From an uncultured Verrucomicrobiales bacterium (GTDB taxonomy: Bacteria; Verrucomicrobiota; Verrucomicrobiia; Verrucomicrobiales; Akkermansiaceae): DNA of 64,000 nucleotides. The stretch covers positions 1 to 64,000 of the forward strand of contig CASICJ010000002.1 in NCBI GenBank assembly GCA_949373085.1, in the 5' to 3' direction. The position numbers and the translations under genes are program-made. The notes beneath the pieces were generated by a model. That model was not told the DNA's origin, did no database searches, and was given only the letters and a program-made list of their open reading frames with translations. This document shows positions 1,704 to 17,158 of this stretch, in pieces. Position 1 is the first letter of the stretch; each line of letters begins with the position of its first letter.

Positions 1704-1835
1704 TACGTTTTACTTTTTGGGGAAAACCAAAAAATGACTCCATTTGGTTAGGCGCAATAACATCAAATTTTGTGCCATCAAAATGACTGATAACGAGAGA
1801 TCTTTTTTGATTTTGAGGTTTGCCCCAGATCATAA
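1698..1835 (-). promoter_or_regulatory. leader/promoter region shared with the gene at 13199
   Basis: From the first codons (ATGAACAATATGAAAAA) upstream for about 140 nt, this minus-strand leader aligns with 13186-13330, the leader of a protein with no sequence relation. By eye identity is high, with short indels, and it stops at the adjoining repeat in both cases. It probably carries the promoter. I infer a regulatory role from the conservation; no -35/-10 pair stands out clearly. Confidence 0.5.
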
Positions 1836-1837
1836 TT

Positions 1838-1905
1838 TTGTCTCTCCTTATCCGGTCTAAAAGCAGCTTCAAAGCCGTCCCACCAAAAGCAATTTCCTAG
1901 CAATT
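1838..1905 (+). repeat. cassette-boundary repeat R1 (type A, degenerate left end)
   Basis: Right part AAAAGCAATTTCCTAGCAA matches the common repeat end, and the centre (CCGGTCTAAAAGCAGCTTCAAAGCC) matches the type A copies at 5409 and 10376. The C-rich left end is not recognisable here. It lies between the leader of the gene at 732-1703 and the 3' end of the DUF5690 gene. Confidence 0.7.
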
Positions 1906-1999
1906 CAGTGAAAAAACAGCCAAGACCAAGTTTGCGTTACTGCGCCAGGCTCATTGGAAACTCGCCTGAGCGGTCATCTTTGGCCAGTGAGGCGCTGTT

Positions 2000-3302
2000 T
2001 CAGGTGGGTCGATTCCGGGTCCGGTCACTCCTTAGGATTAGGAAGGCACTGGCCAGAATGAGCCCGGCCGATCCGATCGAAAGGATATAGGTGAAGGAGC
2101 GGAAAAATTCCAGGCGAGTGGCCTCGCCTACGACTAGATCTTTGAACAAGAGAATCGCCACCGATCCGGTGTAGCCGAGGGCGTCGGCGACATAGATGGC
2201 AAAAACCGCTGTTCCGATCACATTAGCTTTGGCGATTATCCGATCAAACAGGATCGAGCCGTAAGGCACGTAAGCAAGGTAGGAGCCAATTCCGATGAGG
2301 ATCATCCAGGTGAGGCCGTTGATTGCGCCGCGGTCGAATAAAAGAGTGCTTACCCCCAGCGAAACGGCACCGAAGATCATCAGGGATAAAGCAGCGAGCA
2401 GGCCGAAAAAATTATCGCGGATACAGAAGAGGAGCGCGAGAGGGACGAGAACCCCAAAGGCCACCCAAGTCTCACTCTTGGAAAAAATACCCGGTTTCTC
2501 GCCGTAGCCCAGCTCGGAGAATATCTCGACTCCGTAGTTGTCTCTGTAATCGCGGAAGGCGGTGAGGAAAATGTAGGCAAAGAACAGCATCGTCAGCGGT
2601 AGGAAGAAACGTCTGAGGAAGCTGATACGGTGGGGCTCCGTCCATCGGCTCCCGGGGACTTCGCTCCTCCTCGTCGTCGGCGTCCGGGTCTGGGAGCTGA
2701 TCGAGTAGGAGCGTCGAGACAACAAAGGGTATGAGGAATATCAGACCGGTGGTAAACGGCATCCAGAACTCTGATACTCCATGGTGGTCCATGAGCCAGC
2801 GACCGACATCCTTCACGACACCGCTTGCGAGGATAAAGGAACAGGAGAGGCCCGCGAGAAGGAGCTCCGAGGTCCGGCGCCCCTCAAGGTACCAGACAAC
2901 CAAACCCCAGACCATTCCCAGGGGGAGACCGTTTGCAAAGAGGGCCAGGATCTTGAGTTGCGGGGATAGCACCGCGAAGAGCAACAGCGCGATTTCGGCG
3001 ACGGTCACCAGTCCGATGAGCATGGCGAGCCTCCTGCCGCGCGTCATCTCCGAGCAGAACTTGATGCCCAAATACTTGGACAAGGCGTATCCGATGACCT
3101 GGCTGATCACGAATGCCGTCTTCAGTTCAACCTGTGTCCCAAACAGTGCAAGTCCCTCGTACTGGGCAGCTGAGAACGGCTTGCGAAAGGCGTACATGCA
3201 GAAGTAGGTCGAGAAGGACGTGCCGATGGCAAACACCACCAGCACCCACGACGGAGCGCCAGTCAGCCACCGGGTCAAAGCTCCACGATCTCCGCGAAGC
3301 AC
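2000..3302 (-). pseudogene. DUF5690 family membrane protein, frameshifted
   Basis: Two overlapping frames together make one DUF5690/MFS-like multi-pass membrane protein of about 430 aa. The first frame (GTG start at 3302) carries the family's N-terminal signature STYFCMYAFRKPF and several transmembrane helices. It runs to PREPMDG near nt 2640 and then goes out of frame. The second frame continues with HRISFLRRFFLPL, then FRDYRDNYGVEIFSELGYG, and ends at 2000. A single-base indel near nt 2630-2640 explains the break. The start overlaps the methyltransferase stop (TAGTG), so the two form an operon. The family's function is unknown; a transporter role is only inferred from topology. It could be a real null mutation or a sequencing error. 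Confidence 0.75.
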
Positions 3303-4132
3303 TACGACAAAGGCTTCCTGCCAATGACGAAGGTTGCCTGTCCGTGCTGCCGGCGGCGTTCTTCTCGTTCGGCGAGGAACACGGGCAACGATTCATCCTC
3401 CCGCATGCGTTCGATTTCGGCATTCACGTTTTCCAATTCCTCCGGCTCGACGAGGGCCCAGCTGGAGTCACCATCACGCCACTCCTTCCGTGTCGGCCCG
3501 AGTGGATCGAGGTAGGTTTCTCCCTGCAGCACTTCGTCAAGGGAGACCAGGCGGCCACCCGGTTCCAGACCGGACTCGCTTATGCCCTGCTCTATAAGGT
3601 CTAGGGGAATGAACCGCTTGACCAGTCGGTCGATCGCATCGGGGATGAGTGCAGAATACCAATAGCCCTGACGGTATTGCTCGTGGTAGCAAGTTTGGAT
3701 CACCAAGGTCCCGCCCGGTGCAAGGACCCGTGAGAACTCGGCAACCGAGCTTCGTGTCGCGGCGAAGCTCTCATCAGATCCATCCTCCAGATGGTGGAGC
3801 ACATAGTTCACCACCACCCCATCGCAGGACCCTGATTCAATAGGTAGCTCGAGGACGGAACCCTGTTGCAGTGTCACCTCCTGATGATTCACCATCTTCG
3901 TCCGCGCGGTTTCCAGCATACCCGGGTTGAGTTCCACGCCTTCCACTCGTGCCACTTTGCTGGCGAGGGCAGGCAGGTAGTTGCCCGTCCCACATCCGGC
4001 GTCGAGGACGGTTTGCTCGCCGAGGGGCCTGGAACCGCAGGCCAAGGCTCCGAATATTAATTCCAAACCGACCGGTTGCCTGGTAAGATCATAGTTCTCG
4101 CTGGTGTTCGTGTAGTTTTCAAAAAGGGACAT
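3302..4132 (-). CDS. class I SAM-dependent methyltransferase
   Basis: 276 aa. SAM-binding motif I VLDAGCGTGNY is at residues ~42-52, the acidic end of strand 2 is at VEGVELNP, and the motif IV-like region is DGVVVNYVLHHLED. It is a Methyltransf_11/25-type small-molecule methyltransferase; the C-terminal half gives no clue to substrate. It is the first gene of an operon with the DUF5690 gene, whose GTG start overlaps this stop codon. There is no signal peptide, so it is cytoplasmic. Confidence 0.85.
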   Translation of the reverse strand: MSLFENYTNTSENYDLTRQPVGLELIFGALACGSRPLGEQTVLDAGCGTGNYLPALASKVARVEGVELNPGMLETARTKMVNHQEVTLQQGSVLELPIESGSCDGVVVNYVLHHLEDGSDESFAATRSSVAEFSRVLAPGGTLVIQTCYHEQYRQGYWYSALIPDAIDRLVKRFIPLDLIEQGISESGLEPGGRLVSLDEVLQGETYLDPLGPTRKEWRDGDSSWALVEPEELENVNAEIERMREDESLPVFLAEREERRRQHGQATFVIGRKPLS

Positions 4133-4267
4133 AATAGGACGTTGTTAATCCGTGGCAGGTTACTTACTCAAAGCAATGATGAACTTCTCTCCATTTCGCC
4201 GCACACAGGAATGAACAACGCAATACGGACATTTCATGGACACGGGCGTCTTTGCCAAGGATGAGTC

Positions 4268-4343
4268 ACCCCCCTTTTCACCCCCTCCGCTCCTGTCCAA
4301 GTGCGACTTCAACCCTTTCCCGCCAAAAGCAAATTCCTAGCAG
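4268..4343 (+). repeat. cassette-boundary repeat R2 (type A)
   Basis: C-rich left end (CCCCCCCTTTTCACCCCCTCC), a type A centre, and right end AAAAGCAAATTCCTAGCAG. The centre contains a small inverted repeat AAGT-GCG-ACTT. It sits upstream of the methyltransferase start and 114 bp before a 34-codon signal-peptide stub. Confidence 0.85.
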
Positions 4344-4457
4344 AAAAAAGCAGTCGGAAACAAAAATAAGTCCGAACAATTCCATGCAGGTGACGCCAAA
4401 TGGCGCGCCTGATGGGTGACGTTAGGCAGAGGAGAAGACACAGTAATTAGCCCAATC

Positions 4458-4562
4458 ATGAAACAAGCACGTCTCGTATCCAAGACACCACTACTTGCTT
4501 TTGCGCTTTTTGTCTCCCTATCGACTGCGTTCTCTAAACACAACCCCCTTTCTCCCCCATGA
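4458..4562 (+). pseudogene. signal-peptide stub of a truncated gene
   Basis: A 34-codon ORF starting MKQARLVSKTPLLAFALF, which reads as a clean signal peptide ending near STAFS. It then runs into the C-rich left end of repeat R3 and stops there at TGA. It looks like the 5' end of an exported-protein gene whose body was replaced by the repeat and the next cassette. The rest of 4344-4540 shows nothing else. Confidence 0.45.
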
Positions 4563-4617
4563 ACTCCACCCAATTCCGCTCTTCACGGCCTTTCCGCTAA
4601 AAGCAAATTCCTAGCAG
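4541..4617 (+). repeat. cassette-boundary repeat R3 (type B)
   Basis: Left end CAACCCCCTTTCTCCCCC, a centre unlike type A (ATGAACTCCACCCAATTCCG...), and the shared right end AAAAGCAAATTCCTAGCAG. It is nearly identical over ~75 bp to R5 at 10242; I see one mismatch in the common part. The DUF2459 gene starts 32 bp later. Confidence 0.9.
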
Positions 4618-4648
4618 TAGAGCCGTTGCTTCTCGCTCATATTTCGGA

Positions 4649-5296
4649 ATGCGTTACCTCTTTGCTCTTGGGCTTGCGGCTCTTCCGCTCACCTCGTGCT
4701 CCATTTCGACCGCGCCCCGCACCAACCCGCATCCTCCGTTCGCGATTTCGGAACACGCTGAGCGCACTCCCCTGCTGGTCTTTTCGCACGGGCAACACAC
4801 CGGCCTCGTCCTCCCTCGCAAGGCCCTGGAGAACGTGCTCCCCGAGATTACCACTCAGTTGACCGGAGATTGGCTTGAGTTTGGCTGGGGTGATGAGGGC
4901 TTCTATCGCAACGAGATCGTGACCTTTCCCCTCGCCTTCCGCGCCTTGGCCTACCCCACTCCCAGCGTGATGCATGTCGTCACAAGCAACCGTCCCCTTC
5001 ACCTCGACTACGCATATGCGCCCGCTCACCTCTTTCATCTCACGAACCAACAAAGGCAAATTCTCGTCCGGCGACTTTCGCTTCAATTTGCGCGTGATGG
5101 TAAGGGACGCCTCCTGCCTCTTGGTCCCGGACGTTACGGGGCGAGCCAATTCTACCGTGGTCGGGCACGCTTTTTCTTCCCCAATACTTGCAACGCTTGG
5201 ACCGCAAACCACCTCCGTGCGATTGGTTACAAGGCCAGAGCAGTCACTGCCCCTTGCTTATTTCGTGATCTCGACAGATTAGGGCCAGAAAAATAA
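4649..5296 (+). CDS. DUF2459 family lipoprotein (TIGR02117-like)
   Basis: 215 aa. The N-terminus MRYLFALGLAALPLTSCS is a lipoprotein signal peptide with Cys17 as the lipidated residue. The body carries the DUF2459 hallmarks: HGQHTGLVLP, EFGWGDEGFYR and FPNTCNAWTA. The conserved His, Cys and Trp residues have a cysteine-hydrolase look, but the family's function is not established. It is a single-gene segment between repeats R3 and R4, followed only by a short truncated ORF. Confidence 0.8.
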   Translation: MRYLFALGLAALPLTSCSISTAPRTNPHPPFAISEHAERTPLLVFSHGQHTGLVLPRKALENVLPEITTQLTGDWLEFGWGDEGFYRNEIVTFPLAFRALAYPTPSVMHVVTSNRPLHLDYAYAPAHLFHLTNQQRQILVRRLSLQFARDGKGRLLPLGPGRYGASQFYRGRARFFFPNTCNAWTANHLRAIGYKARAVTAPCLFRDLDRLGPEK

Positions 5297-5360
5297 AAAT
5301 AAAAGAATACGGGTCAAGGTGTAATGATTTGTGCTTTCCGCCACTAACTAGGAGAAGACA

Positions 5361-5480
5361 ATGAAAATACAAGAAGCCTATAAAATCTTCGAAGACCTCT
5401 TGGCCGACCAACCCCCTTTCACCCCCTCCGCTCCGGTCCAAATGCGCCTTCAAGCCCTCCCGCCAAAAGCAATTTCCTAG
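5361..5480 (+). pseudogene. truncated ORF fused into repeat R4
   Basis: A strong ribosome site (AGGAG, 5350-5354) precedes the ATG. The ORF begins MKIQEAYKIFEDLLADQ, then reads straight into R4, whose translation ends LPPKAIS, with the repeat's CCTAG giving the stop codon. So only about 17 residues are native. The N-terminus is too short to name. This is the clearest example of a gene cut off at a repeat boundary. Confidence 0.55.
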
Positions 5481-5483
5481 CAG
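5409..5483 (+). repeat. cassette-boundary repeat R4 (type A)
   Basis: Left end ACCCCCTTTCACCCCCTCCG, centre CTCCGGTCCAAATGCGCCTT, right end AAAAGCAATTTCCTAGCAGT. It serves as the best reference copy for type A. It supplies the last 22 codons and stop of the truncated ORF that starts at 5361. The PSD1 gene follows. Confidence 0.9.
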
Positions 5484-5604
5484 TAACAAACGCCTCACGA
5501 CCTTCCGATTGGATTTCGTGCTGCGACGCCCCTGAGTGCAGTTCCCCGAATCTCGACAAATATGATCGATCATGAGGAGGGCAGAGAGTATAGACCAAGA
5601 AACG

Positions 5605-8600
5605 ATGTGTCGTCTCCTTCTAGTCCCCTTCTTCAGCATCGTGGCAAGTGCGGCCTTCGCCAGCCAGAAATTCGACTTCGAGCAATTTCGCGACCGTCTG
5701 CCCTGGATCTGGCAATCGCCTCAAGCGGTCGAGCCGCCCAAAGTCCAGAATCTGGCATGGCCAACGGATCCGATCGATCGTTTTGTTCTCCAAAAGTTGG
5801 AAGGCGGGCAGCTACGCCCGGCTGAGCCCGCCAATGATCGGCGGTGGATGCGGCGCGCGCACTTTGCCATCACCGGTTTGCCGCCGAAGCCGGAGGACGT
5901 CCAGGCCTTCCTCAAAGACGCTTCCAAGGATCGAAAACGAACCCTTGTCGGCAATCTACTGGATTCCCCGCACTACGGGGAACGCTGGGCACGTCATTGG
6001 ATGGACCTCGTGCGCTACGCGGAATCGCGCGGGCATGAAGGGGATGCCATTCTGCCCAATGCCTACCGGTATCGTGACTATCTGGTTCGCGCCTTCAATG
6101 CGGATCTACCCTATGATGCTTTAGTCCAAGAGCACCTCGCCGGCGACCTCTTGGAAACCCCGCGGCGGCATCCGGAAACGGGTGCCAACGAATCGATCCT
6201 CGCCACTGCCTGGCCTTTCTTTGGCGAGGAAAACAGTACCGCGGTAGATCTTCGTCTGGACGAATGTGACCGCATCGACAACAAGGTCGATGTCTTGAGC
6301 AAGGCTTTCCTCGGTTTGACCGTGGCCTGTGCCCGCTGTCACGACCACAAGTTCGATGCGATCCGCCAAAGTGACTACTATGCCATGGCTGGATTCGTTC
6401 TCAGTTCCAGTTATCGCCAGGCACGGTTTGAGTCGATGGAGCAAAACAAAGCGGTCGTAGAGAAGCTGGCGCGCATGCGTCGCTTGCATATGCCGATGAT
6501 CACGAAAGCATTTGCCAAGGCAGCACGGCCCGTGGTCGATGCGCTGGGTGAGCACGCGGCGGTCGAGCTTAAGACCTCTTCCACGTTTCCCGTGGAAGGT
6601 GAGCATCAGGTCGTAGCGGACTATACCCACGGACCGACAGCCTGGCTGGTGGACGGTCCGACTTTTGGCTCGTCATCAATTCTACCGGGCCAGTTGATGT
6701 TAGTCACAAAGCAAACCTCCGTCCCTTTGCCTCACTGGACGCGTTTGATCGTGGCCGTTGATCCGGGTTCCCAGGGAGAGGCCTGGGCCAAGCCGACATT
6801 TGATCACGGCACGTGGAAAACGATGAAGCTTCCCGGTCATTTTGAAAACGCCGGGTTACCCGATTACGATGGCGTAGTCTGGTTTCGCAAAACCATCGAA
6901 CTGTCCGCCGGGCAGGCCGCGTCAAAAGCGATTTTGCACCTCGGTCAAATCGACGACATGGACGTCACATGGGTTAATGGCACGCGTGTGGGAGGCTACG
7001 AGAATCCCGGTCACCATTACACCTTACGGAAGTATCCAGTTCCTGCGGGTCTCCTGAAACCGGGTAAGAATACGATAGCGGTTCGGGTCATGGACCACGG
7101 TCATCCGGGAGGCATCGCAGGGAAACCCGACCAACTCTCTTTGCAGTTGGGGGAGAAAACCGTTTCCCTGGCCAATCTCTGGCATTTTGCCCCGGGGGCG
7201 AATTTGAAAGCGCTCAATACAAATGCCGCCCATTCCGCCCCCAAGCTTCACCTGGATCAACCACTCGCACTGTCTCGTCATGGCGGAGCGATCCGTGATG
7301 CCTTTTGGGACGGGCTCAAGAATGTAAATAGTGAAAACGATCCCGGAGCCTTGGATGGCTTGGCGCGTGCTGGTAAAACTATTCGCACCCCGACCGTTAC
7401 CCTGGCATCAGGTCAGGTTCATTACCTGATCAGGGGGAAGGCAAAGGTGTATGCCGCGGTCAGCCAGGCGTTGTTTACCGGTCCCCTGCACACAACCCTG
7501 ATGCGGACGGTGGAGGCAAACGGCGACACACCACGTTGGATTACGCACGATCTCAGGCACTATGCAGGCCAGCGCGTGCACTTCGAATTTTCTCCGATTG
7601 GGGATGCTCCCTTGGAAATACTCCAGGTCATTGATGGCGGAACACCCGGTCACCTTCCAGGAGAGAAGAAGCAGGTTCCGCGAGAGGAGCTATACCGGGC
7701 GCTCGATGATCTGATGGACGGCGAGTTAGAAGCCCGGCATGTGCCTCATGTCGCCTGGTTGGTCGAGTCGGGTAAAATAAAGCTTCCCGGCGAGTCGATC
7801 AAGAGCTGGCATTCGGCGCTCGATGGTCTGGAGAAAGAAGCGCGATGGGAATCACGGCTGGCCGTCGGCTGGTGGGCAGGCACCGGGGTGGATGAGCATT
7901 TGCTCGATCGGGGCCGTCCCGAATCGCCTGGAGAGCGCGTGGGTCGAAACCTGCCCGAACTTCTTGCGATGGCTCCGATGGACGGTCTGAGCCCCGGACG
8001 CCTGGAGCTCGCCCGACAGCTCACTGCCCCCGAACATCCGCTGACCTCTCGGGTCATGGTCAATCGCATCTGGCATCAGCTTTTCGGTCGCGGGATTGTC
8101 CCTACGCCGGATAACTTTGGCTGGCTGGGCGAGCGGCCAAGTCATCCGGAGTTGCTCGATTACTTGGCCGTTGAGTTCGCAGATACCCACGCGTATTCAA
8201 TCAAGTCGATCATCGAGCGAATCGTGCTGAGCCGGACCTTCGGCATGTCCAGTACGGCCGCAGATCCCGCGTATGCGGATCAGGATCCGGAGAATCGCTG
8301 GCTGCACCGCATGCCGGTAAGACGGCTCGAAGCGGAGGTCATTCGTGATTCGGCGCTCGCCATTTCCGGCCGGCTGGACAGGACGGTCGGGGGAGAGCCG
8401 GTTTTGGTGCACCTGACCGAATTCGTCATCGGCCGCGGCAGTCCGACACAGAGCGGGCCGCTGGATGGTGCCGGTCGGCGATCGATCTATACCGCGCTCC
8501 GGCGCAATTTTCTACCCACCTTCATGCTGGCCTTCGATTTCCCCAGCCCCTTCACCACCGTAGGCAAGCGGAATGTCACGAACGTGGCCGCCCAGTCACT

Positions 8601-8868
8601 GGCCTTGATGAACGATCCCTTTTTATACCAACAGAGCGGTATTTGGGCGAAACGGATAGTCCAAGAAAAACCCTCAGCCCCGAAACGCATTCACCAAATG
8701 TATGCCGAGGCCTTTACCCGCCCGCCGAGTGACCATGAGTTGGCCGCCTGCCTCGAAGCACTCACCGCGTTTGCCGGCTTGTATGGGGGCGATCCCAACA
8801 GCCACGAGGCTTGGCGAGACCTCTGCCATTCGTTTTACAGCATGACGGACTTTACCTACCTGAAATGA
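5605..8868 (+). CDS. PSD1 (DUF1549/DUF1553) cytochrome-like secreted protein
   Basis: About 1087 aa from the ATG at 5605, chosen because it gives a signal peptide (MCRLLLVPFFSIVASAAFA); an in-frame ATG at 5572 would put 11 polar residues before it. DUF1549 spans roughly residues 40-260 and includes a CARCH heme-binding-type motif at ~242. A galactose-binding-like jelly roll is inserted at ~390-520 (WFRKTIEL...VTWVNGTRVGG). DUF1553 fills ~805-1070 (VMVNRIWHQLFGRG). The usual N-terminal PSCyt1 c-type cytochrome domain is missing. These proteins are typical of Planctomycetes/Verrucomicrobia and may act in redox or polysaccharide use, but their activity is unknown. The stop overlaps the DUF1501 start (ATGA). 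Confidence 0.88.
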   Translation: MCRLLLVPFFSIVASAAFASQKFDFEQFRDRLPWIWQSPQAVEPPKVQNLAWPTDPIDRFVLQKLEGGQLRPAEPANDRRWMRRAHFAITGLPPKPEDVQAFLKDASKDRKRTLVGNLLDSPHYGERWARHWMDLVRYAESRGHEGDAILPNAYRYRDYLVRAFNADLPYDALVQEHLAGDLLETPRRHPETGANESILATAWPFFGEENSTAVDLRLDECDRIDNKVDVLSKAFLGLTVACARCHDHKFDAIRQSDYYAMAGFVLSSSYRQARFESMEQNKAVVEKLARMRRLHMPMITKAFAKAARPVVDALGEHAAVELKTSSTFPVEGEHQVVADYTHGPTAWLVDGPTFGSSSILPGQLMLVTKQTSVPLPHWTRLIVAVDPGSQGEAWAKPTFDHGTWKTMKLPGHFENAGLPDYDGVVWFRKTIELSAGQAASKAILHLGQIDDMDVTWVNGTRVGGYENPGHHYTLRKYPVPAGLLKPGKNTIAVRVMDHGHPGGIAGKPDQLSLQLGEKTVSLANLWHFAPGANLKALNTNAAHSAPKLHLDQPLALSRHGGAIRDAFWDGLKNVNSENDPGALDGLARAGKTIRTPTVTLASGQVHYLIRGKAKVYAAVSQALFTGPLHTTLMRTVEANGDTPRWITHDLRHYAGQRVHFEFSPIGDAPLEILQVIDGGTPGHLPGEKKQVPREELYRALDDLMDGELEARHVPHVAWLVESGKIKLPGESIKSWHSALDGLEKEARWESRLAVGWWAGTGVDEHLLDRGRPESPGERVGRNLPELLAMAPMDGLSPGRLELARQLTAPEHPLTSRVMVNRIWHQLFGRGIVPTPDNFGWLGERPSHPELLDYLAVEFADTHAYSIKSIIERIVLSRTFGMSSTAADPAYADQDPENRWLHRMPVRRLEAEVIRDSALAISGRLDRTVGGEPVLVHLTEFVIGRGSPTQSGPLDGAGRRSIYTALRRNFLPTFMLAFDFPSPFTTVGKRNVTNVAAQSLALMNDPFLYQQSGIWAKRIVQEKPSAPKRIHQMYAEAFTRPPSDHELAACLEALTAFAGLYGGDPNSHEAWRDLCHSFYSMTDFTYLK

Positions 8869-10240
8869 ACCATCCCCTCCTCACTCGCCGCGAACTCTTG
8901 CGGAATTCTTCGCTCGGTTTTGGCGGCCTGGCCCTGTCCGGCTTGTATGGCGCGCCCGTGAATCCACATTTCCCGGCACGCGCGAAGAACGTCATTTTCC
9001 TGTTCATGGAGGGCGGCGTTTCCCAGGTGGATTCGTTTGACTACAAGCCGCTTTTGGCCAAGCACCACGGCGAGGATCCTCGCAAGGCTATCGGTGAAAT
9101 CGAAGCTACCCAGTTCGGGAATGTCGGCAAAGTGATGAAGTCTCCCTGGGACGTTCAAACAGCGCGGACAATGCGGGGCCTGGATCAGTGATCTGTTTCC
9201 GCATGTGGCCGAACTGGCCGACGAGCTGGCGATCATTCGATCGATGACCTCCAACTTCCCCGAGCACACCAGTGCCTGTTACTATCTGCACAGCGGATTG
9301 GGCCTGCAAGGGACGGCCCAGCATGGGCGCATGGGCCTCCTACGGCCTGGGAAGCGAAAACGAAAATTTTCCGGGCTATGTCGTACTCAACGGCGGCCAG
9401 ATTCCCTCCGGCGGCCTCGATAATTTTTCCAATGGATTCCTGCCGGCGACGCACCGCGGAAATCTCTTGAACGCCATCGGCACCCCGCTCGCCAATGTGA
9501 AGCCAAATGAGAAAATCGCCCAGGCCCAGGAGATCAAACGTCGCCTGGCGCAGCAGCTGAACCGGGGCACCGCCGGGGGCGTTGAGGCTCTGGAATCGGC
9601 GATTGCCAATCATGAGCTGGCAGCCCGGATGCAACTGGCCATCCCGGAGGTGATGTCGCTGGACCGCGAAACCGAAGCCACGAAAAAGCTTTACGGCTTC
9701 GATGCCGAATACAAACACACCCAGACCTATGCGAGGGAGTGCCTGATCGCCCGGCGGCTGATCGAGCGGGGTGTTCGCTTCGTCGAACTGACCATCCCCA
9801 TGGTGAATGGCTACCAGCGCTGGGATGCCCACAACGACCTCGTGACGAATCACAGTACAAACGCGCGCGCGGTGGACCAGCCGATCGCCGGCTTGATTCG
9901 CGATTTAAAATCACGCGGTCTGCTCGATGAAACCCTAGTGGTTTGGACCGGGGAGTTCGGACGGACGCCCTTTGCCCAGGGTGGCAAAGGGCGGGACCAC
10001 AACGAATACGGATTCAGTCTTTGGATGGCCGGGGGAGGCGTGAAGCCCGGCGTTACATTTGGGGCTACCGACGAATGGGGCTACCGGGCGGTCGAAAATC
10101 CCCTGCAGATACACGATCTGCATGCAACCATCTTGCACCTGCTCGGGATCAACCACGAAAAGCTGACCTACCGCTTCAGTGGCCGGGACATCCGCCTGAC
10201 CGACGTCCACGGAAAAATCGTAAAGGAGATTTTGGCGTAG
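8865..10240 (+). pseudogene. DUF1501 (sulfatase-like) protein, two frameshifts
   Basis: DUF1501 partner of the PSD1 gene, which it overlaps by 4 nt. The start MNHPLLTRRELLRNSSLGFGG is Tat-like. Frame 1 holds NVIFLFMEGGVSQVDSFD and breaks near nt 9150-9160, where KQRGQCGAWISDLFPH continues in frame 2. A second indel near 9312-9318 moves the reading to frame 3, which carries SMGAWASYGLGSENENFPGY through VVWTGEFGRTPFAQGGKGRDHN to the stop at 10240. Restoring two single-base insertions gives a full-length protein of about 458 aa. The alkaline-phosphatase-fold signature (GEFGRTP) is present. It is either a young pseudogene or has two sequencing errors. Confidence 0.85.
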
Positions 10241-10241
10241 C

Positions 10242-10319
10242 CACCCCCCTTTCTCCCCCATGAACTCCACCCAATTCCGCTCTTCACGGCCTTTTCGCTA
10301 AAAGCAAATTCCTAGCAGT
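10242..10319 (+). repeat. cassette-boundary repeat R5 (type B)
   Basis: Starts one base after the DUF1501 stop codon. It matches R3 nearly base for base across ~75 bp, including the type B centre and right end AAAAGCAAATTCCTAGCAGT. Confidence 0.9.
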
Positions 10320-10375
10320 CGTTTGGTTCCTTGACGATCTCTCCATAGACCTTGGCGAAGAGAAGCCGGTTTTAA
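10320..10375. other. 56-bp interval between repeats R5 and R6
   Basis: No complete gene. On the minus strand the interval is open and reads LLFAKVYGEIVKEPND before stopping at TAG where it meets R5; this could be a gene scrap or chance. Together with R5 and R6 this makes a repeat-dense stretch (10242-10452). From 10453 to the ankyrin start at 10645 I see no gene. Confidence 0.4.
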
Positions 10376-10452
10376 CAACCCCCTTTCGCCCCCCTCTGCT
10401 CCGGTCCAAAGGCGCCTTCAAAGCCCTCCCGCCAAAAGCAATTTCCTAGCAA
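10376..10452 (+). repeat. cassette-boundary repeat R6 (type A)
   Basis: Left end CAACCCCCTTTCGCCCCCC, type A centre with a perfect 10-bp palindrome AAGGCGCCTT, right end AAAAGCAATTTCCTAGCAAT. It is followed 193 bp later by the ankyrin lipoprotein gene. Confidence 0.88.
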
Positions 10453-10644
10453 TCAGTCAGTCAGTGAGAAGAAGGACGTCTGGAAGCTTTTCCCTCTACA
10501 TAAGACTGTAAAGAGCGATCTGTCGGAAAAGAAATGGTCGAAACAGACAAATTTTTTTCCGTGCCACAAGCCTGAAGCAGGCAAAGGAATGCTACTCTGG
10601 CCAAGCCTTCATAAAACCAATCTTCCGAAGAAAAACACCCTCAA

Positions 10645-11334
10645 ATGAAAATAGAAAAAATCCTGCTCTCAATAATCACAACCTTTGCACTCGTCGGTTG
10701 CACTCCTAACCTTCACAAGGCGGCAAGGGAGGGTGATGCCGACAGGGTCAGGAATTTACTCGATGCCGGGACGGACGTTAACGTCAGGAATGCGGACAAG
10801 CAACGCCTGCAATACACCGCCTTGCATTGGGCCACTTATTATGGCCATCTGGAAATCGCTATAATCCTGATCTCCCGCGGGGCGGATCTGGATGCCGAGG
10901 ACCCAACTTACTCAACTCCCCTCTACCTTGCCGCAGAACAGGGCCATCCGAAAGTCGTCGAGTTCCTGATCTCCAAGGGAGCGGAGGTGAACGTGAAGAA
11001 TAATAAGTGGGGCTACACCCCCTTGCATCGAGCGGCATGGCAATCCGTGACCATGAGAAAACACCTTGGGGGAAGAACAGTTTCTGAGGCCGAGCTGAAT
11101 GAGAATTACTTGGAAATCGTCGGTATGCTTCTGGGAAAAGGCGCGAAGGTTAACGCCCAAGACAACGGTGGTAAAACACCACTGGACCAAGCCGTAAGGA
11201 ATAGCGAAAAGGAAATCGTCGCCCTCCTCCGCAAGCACGGAGGCAAGACGGCTGAAGAATTGAAAGCGGAAGCTGCCCCTCCGCTCCGGTCCAAATGGGG
11301 CTTCAAGGCCCTCCCGCTAAAAGAAAATTGCTAG
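10645..11334 (+). CDS. ankyrin-repeat lipoprotein, C-terminus from repeat R7
   Basis: 229 aa. Lipoprotein signal MKIEKILLSIITTFALVGC (lipobox LVGC, Cys19). Ankyrin repeats cover ~23-205; clear ones are ALHWATYYGHLEIAIILISRGADLD, then PLYLAAEQGHPKVVEFLISKGAEVN, then PLHRAAWQ...EIVGMLLGKGAKVN and PLDQAVRN...IVALLRKHGGKT. The native tail ends around KTAEELKAE. The last ~20 residues (APPLRSKWGFKALPLKENC) are encoded by repeat R7, which also gives the stop. Ankyrin repeats bind proteins; the partner is unknown. Confidence 0.82.
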   Translation: MKIEKILLSIITTFALVGCTPNLHKAAREGDADRVRNLLDAGTDVNVRNADKQRLQYTALHWATYYGHLEIAIILISRGADLDAEDPTYSTPLYLAAEQGHPKVVEFLISKGAEVNVKNNKWGYTPLHRAAWQSVTMRKHLGGRTVSEAELNENYLEIVGMLLGKGAKVNAQDNGGKTPLDQAVRNSEKEIVALLRKHGGKTAEELKAEAAPPLRSKWGFKALPLKENC

Positions 11335-11338
11335 TAGT
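11274..11338 (+). repeat. cassette-boundary repeat R7 (type A, diverged)
   Basis: Begins at CCCCTCCGCTCCGGTCC without the C-rich leftmost end. The right end AAAAGAAAATTGCTAGTAGT has changes at three otherwise fixed positions. It lies inside the 3' end of the ankyrin gene. Confidence 0.75.
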
Positions 11339-11373
11339 CAGTAAAGGAAAGGAGAGCATTCTTGTCACGCTAA

Positions 11374-11748
11374 CTAAGACTGTTCCCCATAAAGGATATC
11401 TTTACGCATATGTTCTTTAAGTAGCCGTCTTATCTTTTTCCTTTTACTCAGATTATTTAGGTAAACTCCGCACATAATCGAGATCCAAATTCCAATAACA
11501 ACGATCGGACGACTCCCGTCTTCGGATACAGGCATCACCCATATAACCATGACAGTTAAGACCACAAAGATGATCGGAGACGTTGTAATTTCAATATATC
11601 TATAAGCGTAGGACTTACAGATTTTGCATCTGTCATACCCCCTAGAAAGACCCGGCATCTTTTTTCTGATCGCGTCAACTCCAACCTTCCTGCATTTAAG
11701 GCAGCAAACTGCGTTTTTCAGATCCCCTGGCAGATCTCTTTCTTTCAT
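11374..11748 (-). CDS. small zinc-ribbon-like membrane protein
   Basis: 124 aa. Two CxxC pairs (CCLKC at ~15-19 and CKIC at ~41-44) suggest a small zinc ribbon. They are followed by two hydrophobic segments (~58-73 and ~82-97) and a Lys/Arg-rich tail (LSKRKKIRRLLKEHMRK). Family not recognised. It stands alone in its segment and is AT-rich. Confidence 0.55.
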   Translation of the reverse strand: MKERDLPGDLKNAVCCLKCRKVGVDAIRKKMPGLSRGYDRCKICKSYAYRYIEITTSPIIFVVLTVMVIWVMPVSEDGSRPIVVIGIWISIMCGVYLNNLSKRKKIRRLLKEHMRKDILYGEQS

Positions 11749-11844
11749 TACCTATCGAGAATGGCTAACACCTCGACTTTAACAAAGTAAAAAAATATTA
11801 CTCTCACCCAGTTCTAATTACGACTTCAAAGCAAACCACTTCTA

Positions 11845-11869
11845 GTGACACAAAGCCGGCCTCTAGCAC
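11845..11869 (+). repeat. 25-bp direct repeat C, copy 1
   Basis: Identical over 25 bases to 13360-13384; it begins GTGACACAAAGCCGGCC and ends CTCTAGCAC. The CTAGCA at the right edge echoes the CTAGCAG end of the R-type repeats. The two copies bracket a 1.5-kb block. Confidence 0.85.
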
Positions 11870-11963
11870 CCATGAAGGGGTAAGCCGTGTTCACTTCGTT
11901 ATAAAGTCCTCTTTGGATTGTAATGTCTCGCGGAAGTTTATCTCGTCACAATCAAACACGAAT

Positions 11964-12237
11964 ATGAAAACATCTCACCTTCTAGCAACTGCCGCTATAG
12001 TAATAGCTCCAGTCCTAATCTCCTGTAAGAAATCACAAGTAGTAGTAGAGGATAATACAATTGAAAGAGCAGGAATCCAACTGGAAAGATGGGCAGATGG
12101 ACGGAACATTGACTCTTTGGCATAAGAACGGAAAAAAGATGGCTCAAGGGACTGCGAAAGGTGGCAAATCTATCTCTCGCCAGTTTTGGAACAGCAAAGG
12201 TGAAGAGGTTGATTCGATGGAAAAGGCAAAACAATAA
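11964..12237 (+). pseudogene. MORN-like lipoprotein, frameshifted
   Basis: The 5' frame encodes a lipoprotein signal (MKTSHLLATAAIVIAPVLISC) and then leaves frame. The 3' frame, without a start, encodes NWKDGQMDGTLTLWHKNGKK and QFWNSKGEEVDSMEKAKQ. This matches the C-terminal half of the intact protein at 13418-13885 (KDGKWEGLWTGWHSENGQK...YWNIEGIEVENLDEAKG). One indel near nt 12045-12075 reconnects them. These are YwqK/MORN-type beta-hairpin repeats of unknown role. Confidence 0.65.
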
Positions 12238-12286
12238 GCCTTGCGCGTGTTAGGCTTTTTAGCGTCACTTCCTGAACGCTCCCACC

Positions 12287-12385
12287 ATGCGCACGCTACT
12301 GCTATTTCTAAGCCTCTTTATCCTCACGGGATGCAAAGACACCCCGTCGGCAAGCAAGCCGCCAGAGGCCCCTGCAAAACCCTAA
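12287..12385 (+). CDS. tiny lipoprotein (32 aa)
   Basis: MRTLLLFLSLFILTGC is a complete lipoprotein signal with lipobox LTGC, followed by a 16-residue Pro/Ala/Lys tail ending EAPAKP. It may be a real mini-lipoprotein or the stub of a longer gene. It is followed at once by a terminator that serves the opposite strand. Confidence 0.4.
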   Translation: MRTLLLFLSLFILTGCKDTPSASKPPEAPAKP

Positions 12386-12399
12386 TTGACCTTTGACAC

Positions 12400-12434
12400 A
12401 AAAAACCCGCAAAGCACTTAGCCAGCGGGTCTTT
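12400..12434 (-). terminator. Rho-independent terminator
   Basis: Stem ACCCGC (12405-12410) / GCGGGT (12425-12430). Read on the minus strand it ends in a run of T residues. It terminates the gene at 12462-13199. Confidence 0.75.
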
Positions 12435-12461
12435 GAAATTGGTTTATTAGCTAGTTAGTGT

Positions 12462-13199
12462 TTACCACTGTTTAATAATCTTAGTGACCTGGCTTCCAGC
12501 CGGAGTCGCTATCTCTTTTATTGTTTTGAAATGAACAGCCATAGCTTCTTTTTGGCTGTATGCTTCTAAACCTTTTTTGAGATCAGAATATGAGTTGAAT
12601 GAGTGAAGGATATAATGAGTTGATTTTCCTTTGCCAAATTGAAACATCCCCATACCTAAGATATGGTTGGTTCTAAGATCTTTTGTCGCTGATACCACGT
12701 TCTTAAAAGATTCAATAAATTGGGGAGCATCAGCGGCTTTTATTTCAATTTCCCAATGCCCAAAGTAACTGCCTGCTTTTTTGGCATCAGAACCCTTTTT
12801 GGGTATGTTTGTGGTGAAAGTCCTAACTCCAGTATATTTGGATTTAACTTCTGCCAACTGATAAAGATTTGCCATGAATTGCTCTCTGCCATCTTTAAAT
12901 TCATCAGACATCAATGCGCTAATTGCTTCGACATCAGCAGATGATACCGTGAGATTATGGGTCACATCATCGTCTGAGAATATTGTTTCACTCAAAGTTA
13001 CCTTAAATTGTTTATCTGGATCTGCAAAGGTTTCATCAAGTAAGGCTAAAAGTGGTCCAACATTTTTAGGCGATAACTTAAGGTCAAAACCGTTCCAATG
13101 AAATGGTTCTGCTTTCACCGTCTGACTTAAGCAACCCAGTGCGATAGCAAATACCAGTTTGCTCGTGATTTTTTTGAATAGATTTTTCATATTGTTCAT
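12462..13199 (-). CDS. secreted protein of unknown function (245 aa)
   Basis: Starts MNNMKNLFKKITSKLVFAIALG, a signal peptide with likely cleavage near VKA-EP. The C-terminal ~120 residues (HWEIEIKAADAPQFIESFKNVV and HYILHSFNSYSDLKKGLEAY) resemble a ferredoxin-like/dimeric alpha-beta barrel, the fold of NIPSNAP/ABM-type proteins, but I cannot assign a family. Its leader and first codons match those of the unrelated gene at 732-1703. It is AT-rich. Confidence 0.65.
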   Translation of the reverse strand: MNNMKNLFKKITSKLVFAIALGCLSQTVKAEPFHWNGFDLKLSPKNVGPLLALLDETFADPDKQFKVTLSETIFSDDDVTHNLTVSSADVEAISALMSDEFKDGREQFMANLYQLAEVKSKYTGVRTFTTNIPKKGSDAKKAGSYFGHWEIEIKAADAPQFIESFKNVVSATKDLRTNHILGMGMFQFGKGKSTHYILHSFNSYSDLKKGLEAYSQKEAMAVHFKTIKEIATPAGSQVTKIIKQW

Positions 13200-13330
13200 T
13201 ACGTTTTAATTTTTAGGGAATACCAAAAAGAAGGCTCCATGTGTTAATTGCGCGATAACGCCAAATTTTGTGTCATCAAAACGACTGATCACGAGAGATC
13301 TCTTTAGGTTTTCAGGTTTGTCCCAAGTCC
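13186..13330 (-). promoter_or_regulatory. leader/promoter region shared with the gene at 1703
   Basis: Homologous to 1698-1835 (for example CAAATTTTGTG.CATCAAAA.GACTGAT.ACGAGAGATCT). It ends before repeat C copy 2 and R8. It probably carries the promoter of the 12462-13199 gene. Confidence 0.5.
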
Positions 13331-13359
13331 TAACCTTGCCCTTCGCCCAGAGTTTCTAT

Positions 13360-13384
13360 GTGACACAAAGCCGGCCTCTAGCAC
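13360..13384 (+). repeat. 25-bp direct repeat C, copy 2
   Basis: Identical to 11845-11869. Here it is joined within 7 bp to the partial repeat R8. Confidence 0.85.
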
Positions 13385-13390
13385 TGATCT

Positions 13391-13416
13391 GACCTCCAAA
13401 AGCAAATTCCTAGCAG
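13391..13416 (+). repeat. cassette-boundary repeat R8 (right end only)
   Basis: Only the right end is kept: CCAAAAGCAAATTCCTAGCAGT. The next base starts the ATG of the MORN-like lipoprotein, so this copy forms that gene's whole upstream edge. Confidence 0.8.
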
Positions 13417-13417
13417 T

Positions 13418-13885
13418 ATGAAACCAAGGTATCTCGTAAGCGTATTTCTAATATCGGGCCTTGTGTCAGGCTGTGTCTATGACGGCCCGGGGGCCTTCCC
13501 TAGACCCTTTTGGCAAAAAAAGGGTATGTCTCACATGTATGGCATGCCATCTCTGCCTACCCCAAGGGCCTATTCGGGGTGGAGCGACCAGAAAAAGATG
13601 ACGTTTCAAAACCCCTGGAACTCCCGCGGCTATAGCGGCCCCCATAGTATTTCTTCCACTTATGGGGTTCCTGGTCCTTCAGGTCTTCATAGGACCCGAA
13701 AGGTGTTGGAAGGAACCTACAAGGACGGCAAATGGGAGGGCCTCTGGACGGGGTGGCACAGCGAGAACGGCCAGAAGATGTTTGAAGGAACCTACAAGAA
13801 GGGGAAAAAAGTTTCCGCGAAATACTGGAACATTGAAGGCATAGAGGTTGAGAATCTAGATGAGGCTAAGGGGATGTTTAGGTAA
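13418..13885 (+). CDS. MORN/YwqK-like lipoprotein
   Basis: 155 aa. Lipoprotein signal MKPRYLVSVFLISGLVSGC (lipobox VSGC). After a Gly/Pro/Ser-rich linker come two MORN-like hairpins (EGTYKDGKWEGLWTGWH and EGTYKKGKKVSAKYW) at ~95-145. It is related in its C-terminal half to the broken gene at 11964-12237. The ATG directly abuts repeat R8, with no obvious Shine-Dalgarno in the space available. Confidence 0.7.
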   Translation: MKPRYLVSVFLISGLVSGCVYDGPGAFPRPFWQKKGMSHMYGMPSLPTPRAYSGWSDQKKMTFQNPWNSRGYSGPHSISSTYGVPGPSGLHRTRKVLEGTYKDGKWEGLWTGWHSENGQKMFEGTYKKGKKVSAKYWNIEGIEVENLDEAKGMFR

Positions 13886-14040
13886 TCGAACTAACCGAAG
13901 GAAAAACCGCATCAAATTTCGTTCATTTACTTTACCGCTCCAAATCGTGGGTGGAAGAAGATGAGAAATTGGATAAAAAGAGAGCAGCCCAATAGAGAGA
14001 GCTGGAAAAGAAGGCAAAGGAAGACGAGAAGGATTTCTAG
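13882..14040 (+). pseudogene. remnant of a Lys/Glu-rich gene
   Basis: An open frame without a start reads VIELTEGKTASNFVHLLYRS, then WVEEDEKLDKKRAAQ, meets an in-frame TAG, and continues RELEKKAKEDEKDF to a second TAG at 14040. The charged heptad-like pattern looks like real coding sequence for a coiled coil. It suggests a decayed gene that has lost its start and gained a stop. Confidence 0.35.
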
Positions 14041-14041
14041 G

Positions 14042-14299
14042 ATGCCCCAACCACCCGTTCCAACCTACCGAGTCGAATACGAGCCTTCCCGTGGCTCATG
14101 GCTGCTGACTGGCCCGGTGGGTGCAAAAGGTTGCCTAAGATATACAACCGCCCGGGATGCCGCTGATTACGCCCGTTGGGATGCCCGTGATAGGGGTGGA
14201 AAAATTGAGGTGTTTGACCAACAGCGGAGGCTCTTTAGGAGCATCGTTATTGAGGCTGCTGAGCTAGCAGATTCGGGCTTTGTTTTGCCGTCTGTTTGA
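14042..14299 (+). CDS. small DUF2188-like protein
   Basis: 85 aa from the ATG at 14042; a longer in-frame start at 13961 would add a very basic, unlikely N-terminus that overlaps the remnant. The sequence YRVEYEPSRGSWLLTGP, then TTARDAADYARWDARDRGGKIEVFDQQ resembles DUF2188/YdhR-type small alpha-beta proteins, in which 'A..YAR..A...GG.i.v....G' is conserved. Function unknown. Confidence 0.5.
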   Translation: MPQPPVPTYRVEYEPSRGSWLLTGPVGAKGCLRYTTARDAADYARWDARDRGGKIEVFDQQRRLFRSIVIEAAELADSGFVLPSV

Positions 14300-14386
14300 T
14301 CTTGTAAACTAGAGTCATTGCCTACAGAGCCACCCGCCTAAACAGCAGGCTTCCGACGCTATCTTCAATCGGTCATGTATTAAATT

Positions 14387-14407
14387 ACCGTGCAACAAAC
14401 CGTGCAA
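14387..14407 (+). repeat. 9-bp direct repeats near the tRNA 3' end
   Basis: ACCGTGCAA occurs at 14387-14395 and again at 14399-14407 (12-bp period). It lies about 105 bp from the 3' end of tRNA-fMet. Such short direct repeats can be arm-type integrase sites, but no integrase is in view. The rest of 14300-14460 shows no gene. Confidence 0.4.
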
Positions 14408-14462
14408 TAGATACTGCTAAAACCTGCATTTTGGGACATTTTGACGGTATGTGATATGCTCC

Positions 14463-14512
14463 ACCCAAAAAAGGCGAAAGCCCCTAACTCGTTATGAGTG
14501 AGGGGCTTTCAT
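14463..14512 (-). terminator. terminator of the tRNA-fMet gene
   Basis: Near-perfect inverted repeat GAAAGCCCCTAACTC / GAGTGAGGGGCTTTC (14475-14510). On the minus strand it is followed by CGCCTTTTTTGG, a T-run, directly downstream of the tRNA. Confidence 0.85.
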
Positions 14513-14589
<77 letters not shown>

Positions 14590-14695
14590 ATTTTGTAACC
14601 ACCCCTTTCGAGGCGGGCGGAAGCTAGGTCGATCCGACGAAGACTTCAAGGATTATTTGGCAAAATTGTATTGATTCGCTAAGACAGCGTCGTCC

Positions 14696-15571
14696 ATGCC
14701 CATTCCGGTTCAATCCCCTGCCCCTCTCTCGCTCTCCCAGTGGCAAGAATCAGCAGAGCGCCACCGCCAAGAAGTGGAGCAGATCACAATCCCAATGCGT
14801 GCCCGAAAATCAAGAGGCGAAAAACACCCGGTCTACGACTTTTTACATACCTATTATTCATTCCCTTTGGGCCGGCTCGAAAGGTGGCATCCTGGATTTG
14901 CGGTTCCCCTCGAAATCAATCAAACGATCGACCTGCCAGAGAAACATTACCACCAAGAGGGCGGTATCGCGTGGATTGATTCAAAAAAACTCACCTCCAA
15001 AGCCCGGGAACGAATGCAGCGGATTCATCGCTTACTGGCTCTCACTCAGTCCCGCCCCCCTAACTTTTCATGCCACGGGCTCCACGAATGGGCCATGGTC
15101 TACTCCGGCTCCGACGTCCGGCATCGCGAGAGCGCTCCACTTCGACTGCCGCAATCTGAAATCGACGAGCTGGTTTCGGGTCGGCCCCTCTGCTGTTCAC
15201 ATTTTGATGCCTTTCGATTTTTTGCACCAGATACCGTTCCACTTAATCGATTCACTCCGACTCTCCTAACGCGGGAAGATCATGAACAGCCAGGCTGCAT
15301 CCACGCCAATATGGATCTTTATAAATGGGCCTACAAAAGCTCCCCTTGGATTTCGTCCGACCTCCTTCGTAAAACCCTCTTCTTTACGATCGAGGCCCGG
15401 AGCATCGATATGCGCGCCTCACCTTACGACCTTTCGGACTACGGCTACCCTCCGATTCCCATCGAAACTACGGAAGGCCGACGAGAATATGAGCGAGAAC
15501 AAACCAGCCTGTACCGAAAAGGATTAGCATTACGGTCAGAATTGATAGCCGCCCTTGATAAAATCCTTTGA
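14696..15571 (+). CDS. conserved protein, '3-methyladenine DNA glycosylase'-annotated family
   Basis: 291 aa, cytoplasmic, no signal peptide. Motifs EKHPVYDFLHTYYSF and LERWHPGF near residues 40-65, and HANMDLYKWAYK near 203-214, match a bacterial family often labelled 3-methyladenine DNA glycosylase. I know of no firm biochemical basis for that label, so treat function as unknown. It is divergent from tRNA-fMet and starts 107 bp away. Confidence 0.6.
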   Translation: MPIPVQSPAPLSLSQWQESAERHRQEVEQITIPMRARKSRGEKHPVYDFLHTYYSFPLGRLERWHPGFAVPLEINQTIDLPEKHYHQEGGIAWIDSKKLTSKARERMQRIHRLLALTQSRPPNFSCHGLHEWAMVYSGSDVRHRESAPLRLPQSEIDELVSGRPLCCSHFDAFRFFAPDTVPLNRFTPTLLTREDHEQPGCIHANMDLYKWAYKSSPWISSDLLRKTLFFTIEARSIDMRASPYDLSDYGYPPIPIETTEGRREYEREQTSLYRKGLALRSELIAALDKIL

Positions 15572-15739
15572 GCTTCACTAGTCGTGCATAATCCGACGCC
15601 GGAAAAGCGATTGCTCAAACCGAGAAAATGCCCAAGCTTTGGGCAATCAGCGAGTCAATGAGGTCGCTCAGATCGAGGACTTCTCTCGCTAAGGTTGATT
15701 TAGTGTTTCAAATTGAGTCATTTACGGCTTTCCTCGCGC

Positions 15740-17158
15740 ATGATCCCAAACGTCCTCGCCGAACGATATGCCGCAGCCAAAATCCGCGAAATCTGGTCAC
15801 CTGAAGGCAGGATCATTCTTGAGCGTGACTTCTGGATCGCGGTCATGAAGGGGCAGCAAAATCTCGGCCTCGATATTCCAGAAGAGGCCATTGCTGCCTA
15901 CGAATCAGTCAAGGATCAGATCAACCTAGCCTCCATCGACGAGCGGGAACGACTCACCCGTCACGATGTGAAGGCCCGAATCGAAGAATTCAACGACCTC
16001 GCAGGCCACGAGCATATCCACAAAGGGATGACCTCCCGAGATCTTACCGAGAATGTTGAACAGCTTCAGGTTTACCGGTCACTCGAGGCCATGCGTGATA
16101 AATCAGTGGCAGTTCTGGCCCGCCTTTCCAAGCGAGCTAATCAATGGTCCGAGCTCATGATTACGGCTCGCACCCACAATGTCGCAGCGCAGCCAACCAC
16201 CTTTGGCAAGCGAATCTCGATGTTCGGCGAGGAGGTTCTCAGTGCCTATCATAACCTTGATTTCATTCTCCAATCCTATCCAGTCCGGGGCCTAAAAGGT
16301 GCAGTGGGCACTCAGATGGATCAGGTTTCTCTTTTTAACGGAGATACTACTAAGGTCGCCGAATTAGACGAACAGGTCAGGGTCCACCTTGGCTTGCCAA
16401 AAGCCTGGACCAATGTCGGGCAAGTCTATCCGCGATCGCTCGATTTCCGGGTTATAAGTGCCTTGGTCGACCTGGCCTCGGGGCCATCCTCTTTCGCAAA
16501 AACTCTCCGCCTCATGGCAGGTCATGAAACCGCATCAGAAGGTTTCGCTAAGGGTCAGACCGGTTCATCTGCTATGCCACACAAGATGAATTCGCGGTCC
16601 TGCGAGCGAGTCAACGGCTTCCACACCATCCTCAAAGGCCATCTCACCATGGCCTCAAACCTCGCCGGCGATCAGTGGAACGAGGGAGATGTCTCATGCT
16701 CTGTCGTGCGACGGGTCATGCTTCCTGACGCCTTTTACGCGATTGACGGACTTTACGAAACCTTCCTCACCATCCTTGGTCAGATGGATGCCTACCCTGC
16801 CGTTATTGAAAAAGAAAACACCCATTACCTCCCCTTCCTTCTCACGACAACGATCATGATGGAAGCCGTGAAAGCGGGCGTAGGTCGCGAGACTGCGCAC
16901 GAAGCAATCAAGGAACACGCCGTCGCAACCGTTCACGATCTTAGAAATGGCAAGGCGAGCGAAAACAATCTTCTGAAACGACTCGAAGAAGACGCCCGAC
17001 TCCCACTGAATGCCGAATCTCTCTCTCAAATCCTCGCACAAGGCCGAGATAATGTCGGACAAGCTAAGGTTCAAATCGCCCATTTTGATGAGCAAATCAA
17101 CGCTCTAAAAGCGACTCACCCGGAAGCTTCCAACTACTCCCCTGGATCAATCCTCTAG
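15740..17158 (+). CDS. purB: adenylosuccinate lyase
   Basis: 472 aa from ATG 15740 (an upstream TTG at 15713 is less likely). It catalyses two fumarate-releasing steps in purine synthesis (SAICAR to AICAR; adenylosuccinate to AMP). The fumarase/aspartase superfamily signature GSSAMPHKMN is at ~275-284. The second conserved region is GMTSRDLTENVEQ and the third TARTHNVAAQPTTFGKR, with the catalytic His in ARTH. It is followed by ndk on the same strand. Confidence 0.95.
   Translation: MIPNVLAERYAAAKIREIWSPEGRIILERDFWIAVMKGQQNLGLDIPEEAIAAYESVKDQINLASIDERERLTRHDVKARIEEFNDLAGHEHIHKGMTSRDLTENVEQLQVYRSLEAMRDKSVAVLARLSKRANQWSELMITARTHNVAAQPTTFGKRISMFGEEVLSAYHNLDFILQSYPVRGLKGAVGTQMDQVSLFNGDTTKVAELDEQVRVHLGLPKAWTNVGQVYPRSLDFRVISALVDLASGPSSFAKTLRLMAGHETASEGFAKGQTGSSAMPHKMNSRSCERVNGFHTILKGHLTMASNLAGDQWNEGDVSCSVVRRVMLPDAFYAIDGLYETFLTILGQMDAYPAVIEKENTHYLPFLLTTTIMMEAVKAGVGRETAHEAIKEHAVATVHDLRNGKASENNLLKRLEEDARLPLNAESLSQILAQGRDNVGQAKVQIAHFDEQINALKATHPEASNYSPGSIL

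Follow-up and report, generated by a model that had tools for sequence, protein, structure and literature searches.

The systems closest to the locus described here are the IS91 and ISCR elements. For ISCR1, one account gives a 232-bp region that contains oriIS and states, as of 2018, that ISCR transposition had not yet been demonstrated experimentally (PMC6218425). Another deals with the mobilisation of neighbouring genes by ISCR (PMC13393415), and according to a third two successive oriIS capture what lies between them (PMC12772301). The parts of these sources that deal with IS91/ISCR capture treat it mainly for resistance genes (PMC6218425, PMC13393415, PMC12772301). Open-access titles and abstract openings on IS91 in Verrucomicrobia, on cassette arrays and on Rubritalea transposases, describe no arrays of the kind found here.

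The window, that is the whole stretch of 64,000 nucleotides analysed, comes from an uncultured Verrucomicrobiales bacterium. It probably carries an array of gene blocks that end in the right-hand (oriIS-type) ends of an IS91-family rolling-circle transposon, with a 25-bp sequence, hereafter the 25-mer, as a separate leader edge. Across the Verrucomicrobiales the best reading is an ISCR-like one-ended rolling-circle capture that leaves mostly orphan ends. The main repeat has the core AAAAGCAAATTCCTAGCAG, which is found on the forward strand of the window at 1885..1903 (two mismatches), 4325..4343, 4599..4617, 5465..5483 (one mismatch), 10300..10318, 10434..10452 (two mismatches), 11319..11337 (three mismatches) and 13398..13416, the eighth core being bare and the last of the window's array. 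The genome (3.41 Mb in 72 contigs, 81% complete) holds the core at 76 places with up to three mismatches, against one for the control. In a logo of 67 sites, from which two duplicate C40 sites were dropped, about 60 bp of pyrimidine-rich sequence on the left precede a core of some 24 bp, which stops abruptly, conservation being gone within three bases past the 3' edge. The core is widespread in the order, the matches listed including Akkermansiaceae, other Verrucomicrobiales and the isolate Rubritalea profundi, and it also occurs in one stretch of a viral collection. The matches listed further include cores from records under the names Halobacteroidaceae, Deltaproteobacteria and Bacteroidetes (L152, L184, L214 and L250), perhaps misbinned contigs or cases of transfer. 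The core was also considered as an RNA element and rejected as such, since no Rfam family reached its gathering score in five core-bearing stretches; over positions 1-16000 of the window Rfam returned one tRNA and two sub-threshold matches. A tandem repeat with an 18-bp period lies further along the window, at 29233-29553.

The core is the 3' end of elements that encode an IS91-type transposase in this order. When 1297 open frames taken from 172 stretches were clustered, an IS91-like protein emerged in four stretches; the L206 copy, a full-length frame in Rubritalea profundi and the one to which Pfam was applied, contains the domains Y2_Tnp (5e-23) and Zn_Tnp_IS91 (3.3e-17). Matches to the transposase at 1e-30 are present in 72 of 386 genomes of the order, in a search that scored at most four candidates per genome, and its best 30 matches were taken as the loci for analysis. 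Five of these (L296, L298, L309, L314 and L323) have less than 300 bp downstream and were left out. Of the other 25 loci, 23 carry a core (up to four mismatches) downstream of the transposase on the same strand and none does so on the opposite strand, which identifies the core as the right-hand end of this IS91 element; of the remaining two, L301 has a core with five mismatches at +265 and L312 has none. The distance from protein match to core is 242-535 bp in the 23 loci and 249-307 bp in the 18 full-length ones, the raw distances being overstated in L306, L311, L315, L318 and L321, where the protein match stops short of the end. As a control, a core lies 220-355 bp downstream of 6 of 169 open reading frames of at least 200 aa from core-rich stretches of the own genome. 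By analogy with the IS91/ISCR literature the core may serve as an origin of replication. An ISCR origin sequence may resemble it, a likeness given no weight here. Additional bare ends follow in tandem past the transposase copy in seven loci (L304, L311, L313, L315, L317, L320 and L324). The HUH motif (HPHLH or HPHIH) is present in 29 of the 30 loci. IS91 has two catalytic tyrosines and ISCR one; here the tyrosine motif reads YLLRYP in one locus (L295, which looks like the same locus as L206) and YLLRHP in 19, with the pattern unmatched in 10. Upstream of the transposase copies, where the left end (terIS) was sought, homology fades without a common edge. In the family search the one transposase of the own genome is truncated and fused to a core, and G006 has no more than a fragment, while G004 has no IS91 gene at this search and a fragment in a further one. 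Recent movement in these genomes would therefore need an enzyme that acts in trans, has been lost or is missing from the assemblies. Core counts and IS91 matches do not vary together across the genus.

Wherever sequences can be compared, the junctions are exact at the 3' edge of the core, some units begin inside genes, and the cores stand head to tail. Thus C16:39864-43681 and C40:1-3816 are 99.6% alike and diverge at the last base of a core, a fork that is possibly a population variant and could be an assembly artefact. Among 41 alignment ends, a set without 15 ends at sequence edges and without alignments below 250 bp or 72%, seven lie no more than 12 bp away from a core edge in one or the other partner, as against 0.6% for random positions. 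Neighbouring cores up to 6 kb apart share their orientation in 37 cases versus 1 in the own genome, 35 versus 6 in three relatives and 66 versus 9 in the order set. Where the core ends in CAG, the next bases are TCAG in 7 of 42 cases in the own genome and in 10 of 78 and 16 of 161 in the other sets, with a background of about 0.4%; for orientation and TCAG alike, the sets overlap in part through order-set loci shared with G004, G006 and G342 and are thus not independent. At the transposase loci TCAG is not among the nine of ten that were listed, and TCAT follows three of ten CAT ends; no fixed short target stands out next to the origin end. The predicted genes between cores face either direction.

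The right side of the core leads into sequence that elsewhere has other company. A search with 400 core right flanks kept 143 matches, 77 of which, at 69-99% identity, have another left neighbour and no core, 24 of the 77 being a single locus (L257) matched against IS91 genes. In L257 the core leads straight into the middle of an IS91 transposase, and at the core edge at C16:38848 a fragment begins that is 94% alike to an internal part of the gene at C16:27333-28778, which by eye looks DUF1501-like. The clearest case is the pair L216 and C21, in which one site occurs both occupied and empty between orthologous flanks (83% and 90%). In C21 the site retains nothing but an old, decayed core; in L216 the counterpart of this core is followed by a 2.5-kb block that contains two sizeable frames, of 213 and 342 aa, and ends precisely at a fresh core. 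The pair fits either an insertion in L216 or a loss in C21 by recombination between cores, and in both cases the core edge is the joint. G004 and G006, 99% identical at one place, differ there by 15 bp; this was set aside as a candidate tiny unit, as a slippage duplication fits it equally.

The blocks are proposed to arise through one-ended rolling-circle transposition: copying would start at the origin end, run leftwards through the neighbouring gene and stop anywhere. New blocks would enter beside an existing core, so that arrays would grow in one direction. The 25-mer would form the constant left edge of a block plus leader, often placed before small lipoprotein-like or other genes, and this block and its leader would travel inside the core-ended units.

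The two 25-mers of the window, at 11845..11869 and 13360..13384 on the forward strand, both read GTGACACAAAGCCGGCCTCTAGCAC, are identical at 25 of 25 positions, as originally predicted, and lie 1515 bp apart. With up to three mismatches the window contains just these two, and 100 dinucleotide shuffles give none. Both match the family consensus exactly, and copies in other genomes (L245, L261 and L265) do so too, so their identity is no evidence of recent duplication and does not date them. The genome search that the original prediction had called for found nine copies in the own genome with up to three mismatches, where the backwards control gave none. Extended by two bases, the family was found in nine of the 27 genomes of the genus and in eight of the 386 of the order, the latter within 2 of 50 genera. 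Across genomes 28 distinct loci were gathered, and their logo is sharp from the first base and fades by about +50. The conserved block thus extends some 25 bp to the right of the 25-mer (about 50 bp in total) and in many loci is followed by a leader. The 25-mer is a genuine junction, at which differing left flanks combine with differing right modules. L144 and L265 share the right side and not the left, whereas L262 and L268 have 606 bp in common on the left and diverge 28 bp to the right. A hairpin in the consensus of the block was dropped, as single RNA folds share no stem.

The sharp left edge also suggests that the 25-mer could be the left, terIS-like end of units that the main core closes on the right. 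In L277 it starts 2 bp past the preceding core, and in L245, which matches like L263, an unrelated repeat stops at the same edge. However, in five further copies that have a core less than 1.5 kb upstream the distance varies from 33 to 1337 bp, and in a sixth it is 1535 bp. Ahead of 13 IS91 transposase copies the 25-mer does not appear within 330 bp, and it was found in 8 of the 386 order genomes, whereas the core is widespread in the order. A terIS-like role is on this evidence unlikely.

A further explanation, rather improbable, is the one closest to the original prediction, which saw in the 25-mers a second, related boundary family: they would be the right-hand ends of a sister IS91-like family and hence a true second boundary. 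The resemblance between the end of the 25-mer and the edge of the main repeats is real, in that both have the spacing AAAGC-N6-CTAGCA. Several left flanks carry the subterminal sequence of the main family, CGACTTCAAAGCC, and these flanks fall into types, one of which bears that sequence, much as in the main family. Against this, the sharp edge is at the left and conservation goes on to the right of CTAGCAC, the mirror image of the main repeat, which is not how a second right-hand boundary behaves. An exact CTAGCAC edge with unrelated right flanks was sought and not found over the 28 loci, where conservation runs to about +50 with the copy at 13360 as an exception, and the right-hand ends of pairwise alignments between the loci are scattered. 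Moreover, no IS91-like transposase was found in three fully listed 3-kb loci or among the downstream frames. What stands of the predicted boundary family is a repeated family that joins differing left and right sequences; its reading as a right-hand boundary does not fit a conservation that is sharp on the left and fades to the right.

The preferred reading, in which the 25-mer is a leader edge separate from the cores, draws on what lies downstream. The 25-mers probably mark the start of a leader that is common to small surface-protein genes. In 14 of 27 loci (L267 was dropped from the 28) an ATG that opens a frame of at least 30 aa lies between +105 and +140, compared with 523 of 3000 random positions; among the 14 are a spurious frame in L271, whose true ATG lies at +58, and one in L276 that is partly masked. 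The other 13 have no start codon at the usual place. By eye, 8 of the 27 loci have lipoprotein-like starts, some of them cut short. An automatic lipobox pattern, by which some of the by-eye cases were excluded, gave no enrichment, matching 2 of the 14 starts and 39 of 523 controls.

In the window both 25-mers stand upstream of lipoprotein-like genes that are related to each other. Copy 1 is embedded in a leader module (11821..11963, forward strand) that consists of a left flank like the subterminal part of the main family, the 25-mer and a promoter-like stretch up to the ATG at 11964. It would belong to the broken lipoprotein-like gene at 11964..12237 (forward strand; labelled MORN in the original prediction), which is split into two frames (11964 and 12061) and the second part of which is 46% identical over 57 aa (E 2e-14) to the protein encoded by the intact lipoprotein-like gene at 13418..13885 (forward strand). 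The latter protein has no Pfam match at E 0.1, and its gene begins one base after core 8. Behind the broken gene lies a separately repeated piece (12182..12371, forward strand) with a 32-aa lipoprotein-like start (ATG at 12287); the piece recurs elsewhere, and in L224 this start directly follows a core. The next gene, 12462..13199 on the reverse strand, encodes a probable secreted protein of 245 aa with no Pfam family above its cut-off. The 5' region of this gene (13179..13359 on the forward strand) is 92% alike in G016 (C46), where it abuts a diverged 25-mer with a leader. Positions 1683-1733 and 13179-13229 of the window, the 5' regions of two different minus-strand genes, are 92% identical, with a third related copy at C8:102180. 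A stretch at 14037-14123, part of a small gene at 13961-14299, has fragments on C8 and in L245 ends a few bases before the 25-mer.

Copy 2 has no leader, being cut exactly after CTAGCAC, and the bare core at 13398-13416 sits 13 bp past it, so that the half copy of the main family to which the original prediction had it fused amounts to these 13 bp plus a core. In G016 a sequence 92% like 13183-13383 leads into a diverged 25-mer (five mismatches), a leader, a short frame of less than 60 aa and a core. As the leader is kept there behind the same left flank, copy 2 of the window probably once had a leader that has since been lost. A later event would have joined the bare core right after its CTAGCAC and just before the ATG of the gene at 13418.

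The idea that the 25-mers bracket a 1.5-kb unit is not supported. Judged by the main repeats, the unit that holds both would run from the edge of core 7 to the end of core 8 (11338..13416, forward strand). A search with 11338-14040 in 27 genus genomes, in which at most 11 candidates were scored per genome, retrieved the span whole from the own genome and from none of the other 26. Pieces of it (about 11811-11997, 12182-12371 and 13179-13383) recur in other genomes in other arrangements. The leader piece and the 12182-12371 piece, about 0.4 kb apart in the window, lie on one contig and in the same order some 1.4 kb apart in G038 (C92) and G019 (C67), so the span is not a wholly private mosaic. 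The 1.5-kb span as such is not conserved and not shown to be a mobile unit, and its excision through the 25-mers is neither shown nor needed.

The arrangement of the cores also recalls an integron, and an integron-like cassette array worked by a tyrosine recombinase would account for head-to-tail sites with genes between them and a boundary at one edge, as well as for the tyrosine recombinase matches near cores on C8, C14 and C71. This is very unlikely, as the integron integrase (TIGR02249) has no match over its cut-off in the own genome and exceeds the curated cut-off in just 7 of the 27 genus genomes (G001, G003, G010, G013, G018, G021 and G040), where it does not follow the core counts in the six that were counted; on these grounds an integron array was rejected as the main reading. 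That the core is the end of IS91 elements also speaks against an integron. The C8 recombinase was likewise rejected as the enzyme of the array because it has no match in the core-rich G004 and G006. The integrase-bearing genomes mostly have few cores, with G003 as the exception and G040 outside the count. The recombinase itself, of 405 aa, is encoded at L053:8846-10063 (C8 of the own genome), with decayed copies near C8:98733 and C8:82435. Behind two of the three copies lies a third repeated element, containing CTATATAATA(C/A)GGTG, that is also found after the 25-mer block of L245. Finally, although several cores in relatives lie within 60 bp of a contig end, the notion that the cores are MITE- or REP-like repeats dispersed between genes and their junctions assembly noise is hardly credible, given flanks that switch at the core edge, units that start inside genes and an orientation of 37:1.

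A wider proposal is put forward tentatively: Verrucomicrobiales would run a gene-capture system, integron-like but built on orphan rolling-circle ends, in which bare origin ends, worked in trans by a rare IS91-family transposase, would add operon-sized blocks next to ends already present and the 25-mer leader would give promoters to captured surface-protein genes. In these environmental Verrucomicrobiales a single genome seems to record dozens of steps of the capture process, among them one site in both its occupied and its empty form, which makes target choice, direction of growth and length of the captured blocks measurable from sequence. This also suggests a route by which these bacteria may shuffle secreted and surface proteins. 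The captured genes are presumably sulfatases, cytochrome/DUF1501-type pairs and lipoproteins, as judged by eye.

As far as the sources cited above describe ISCR, the locus shares with it a gene for an HUH transposase, an origin end 3' of this gene (a 232-bp region in ISCR1, 249-307 bp here), the mobilisation of neighbouring genes and successive oriIS that enclose captured DNA. It differs in its many bare ends without a transposase, which are assembled into multi-unit arrays, and in that no terIS was found. With IS91 it has in common the Y2_Tnp and Zn_Tnp_IS91 domains and the HUH motif, whereas 19 of 30 copies have YLLRHP where L295 has YLLRYP, and the bases after the end lean to TCAG, from which the targets of IS91 itself differ. 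Eukaryotic Helitrons capture neighbouring genes by a rolling-circle process and are in this respect alike, although the system here is bacterial and uses a different enzyme. Integrons and CALINs share the head-to-tail gene units, each closing in a conserved site with one exact edge, but here there is no linked integron integrase, the left edges are variable and the units reach operon size. The array resembles an integron but was seemingly built by a different machine.
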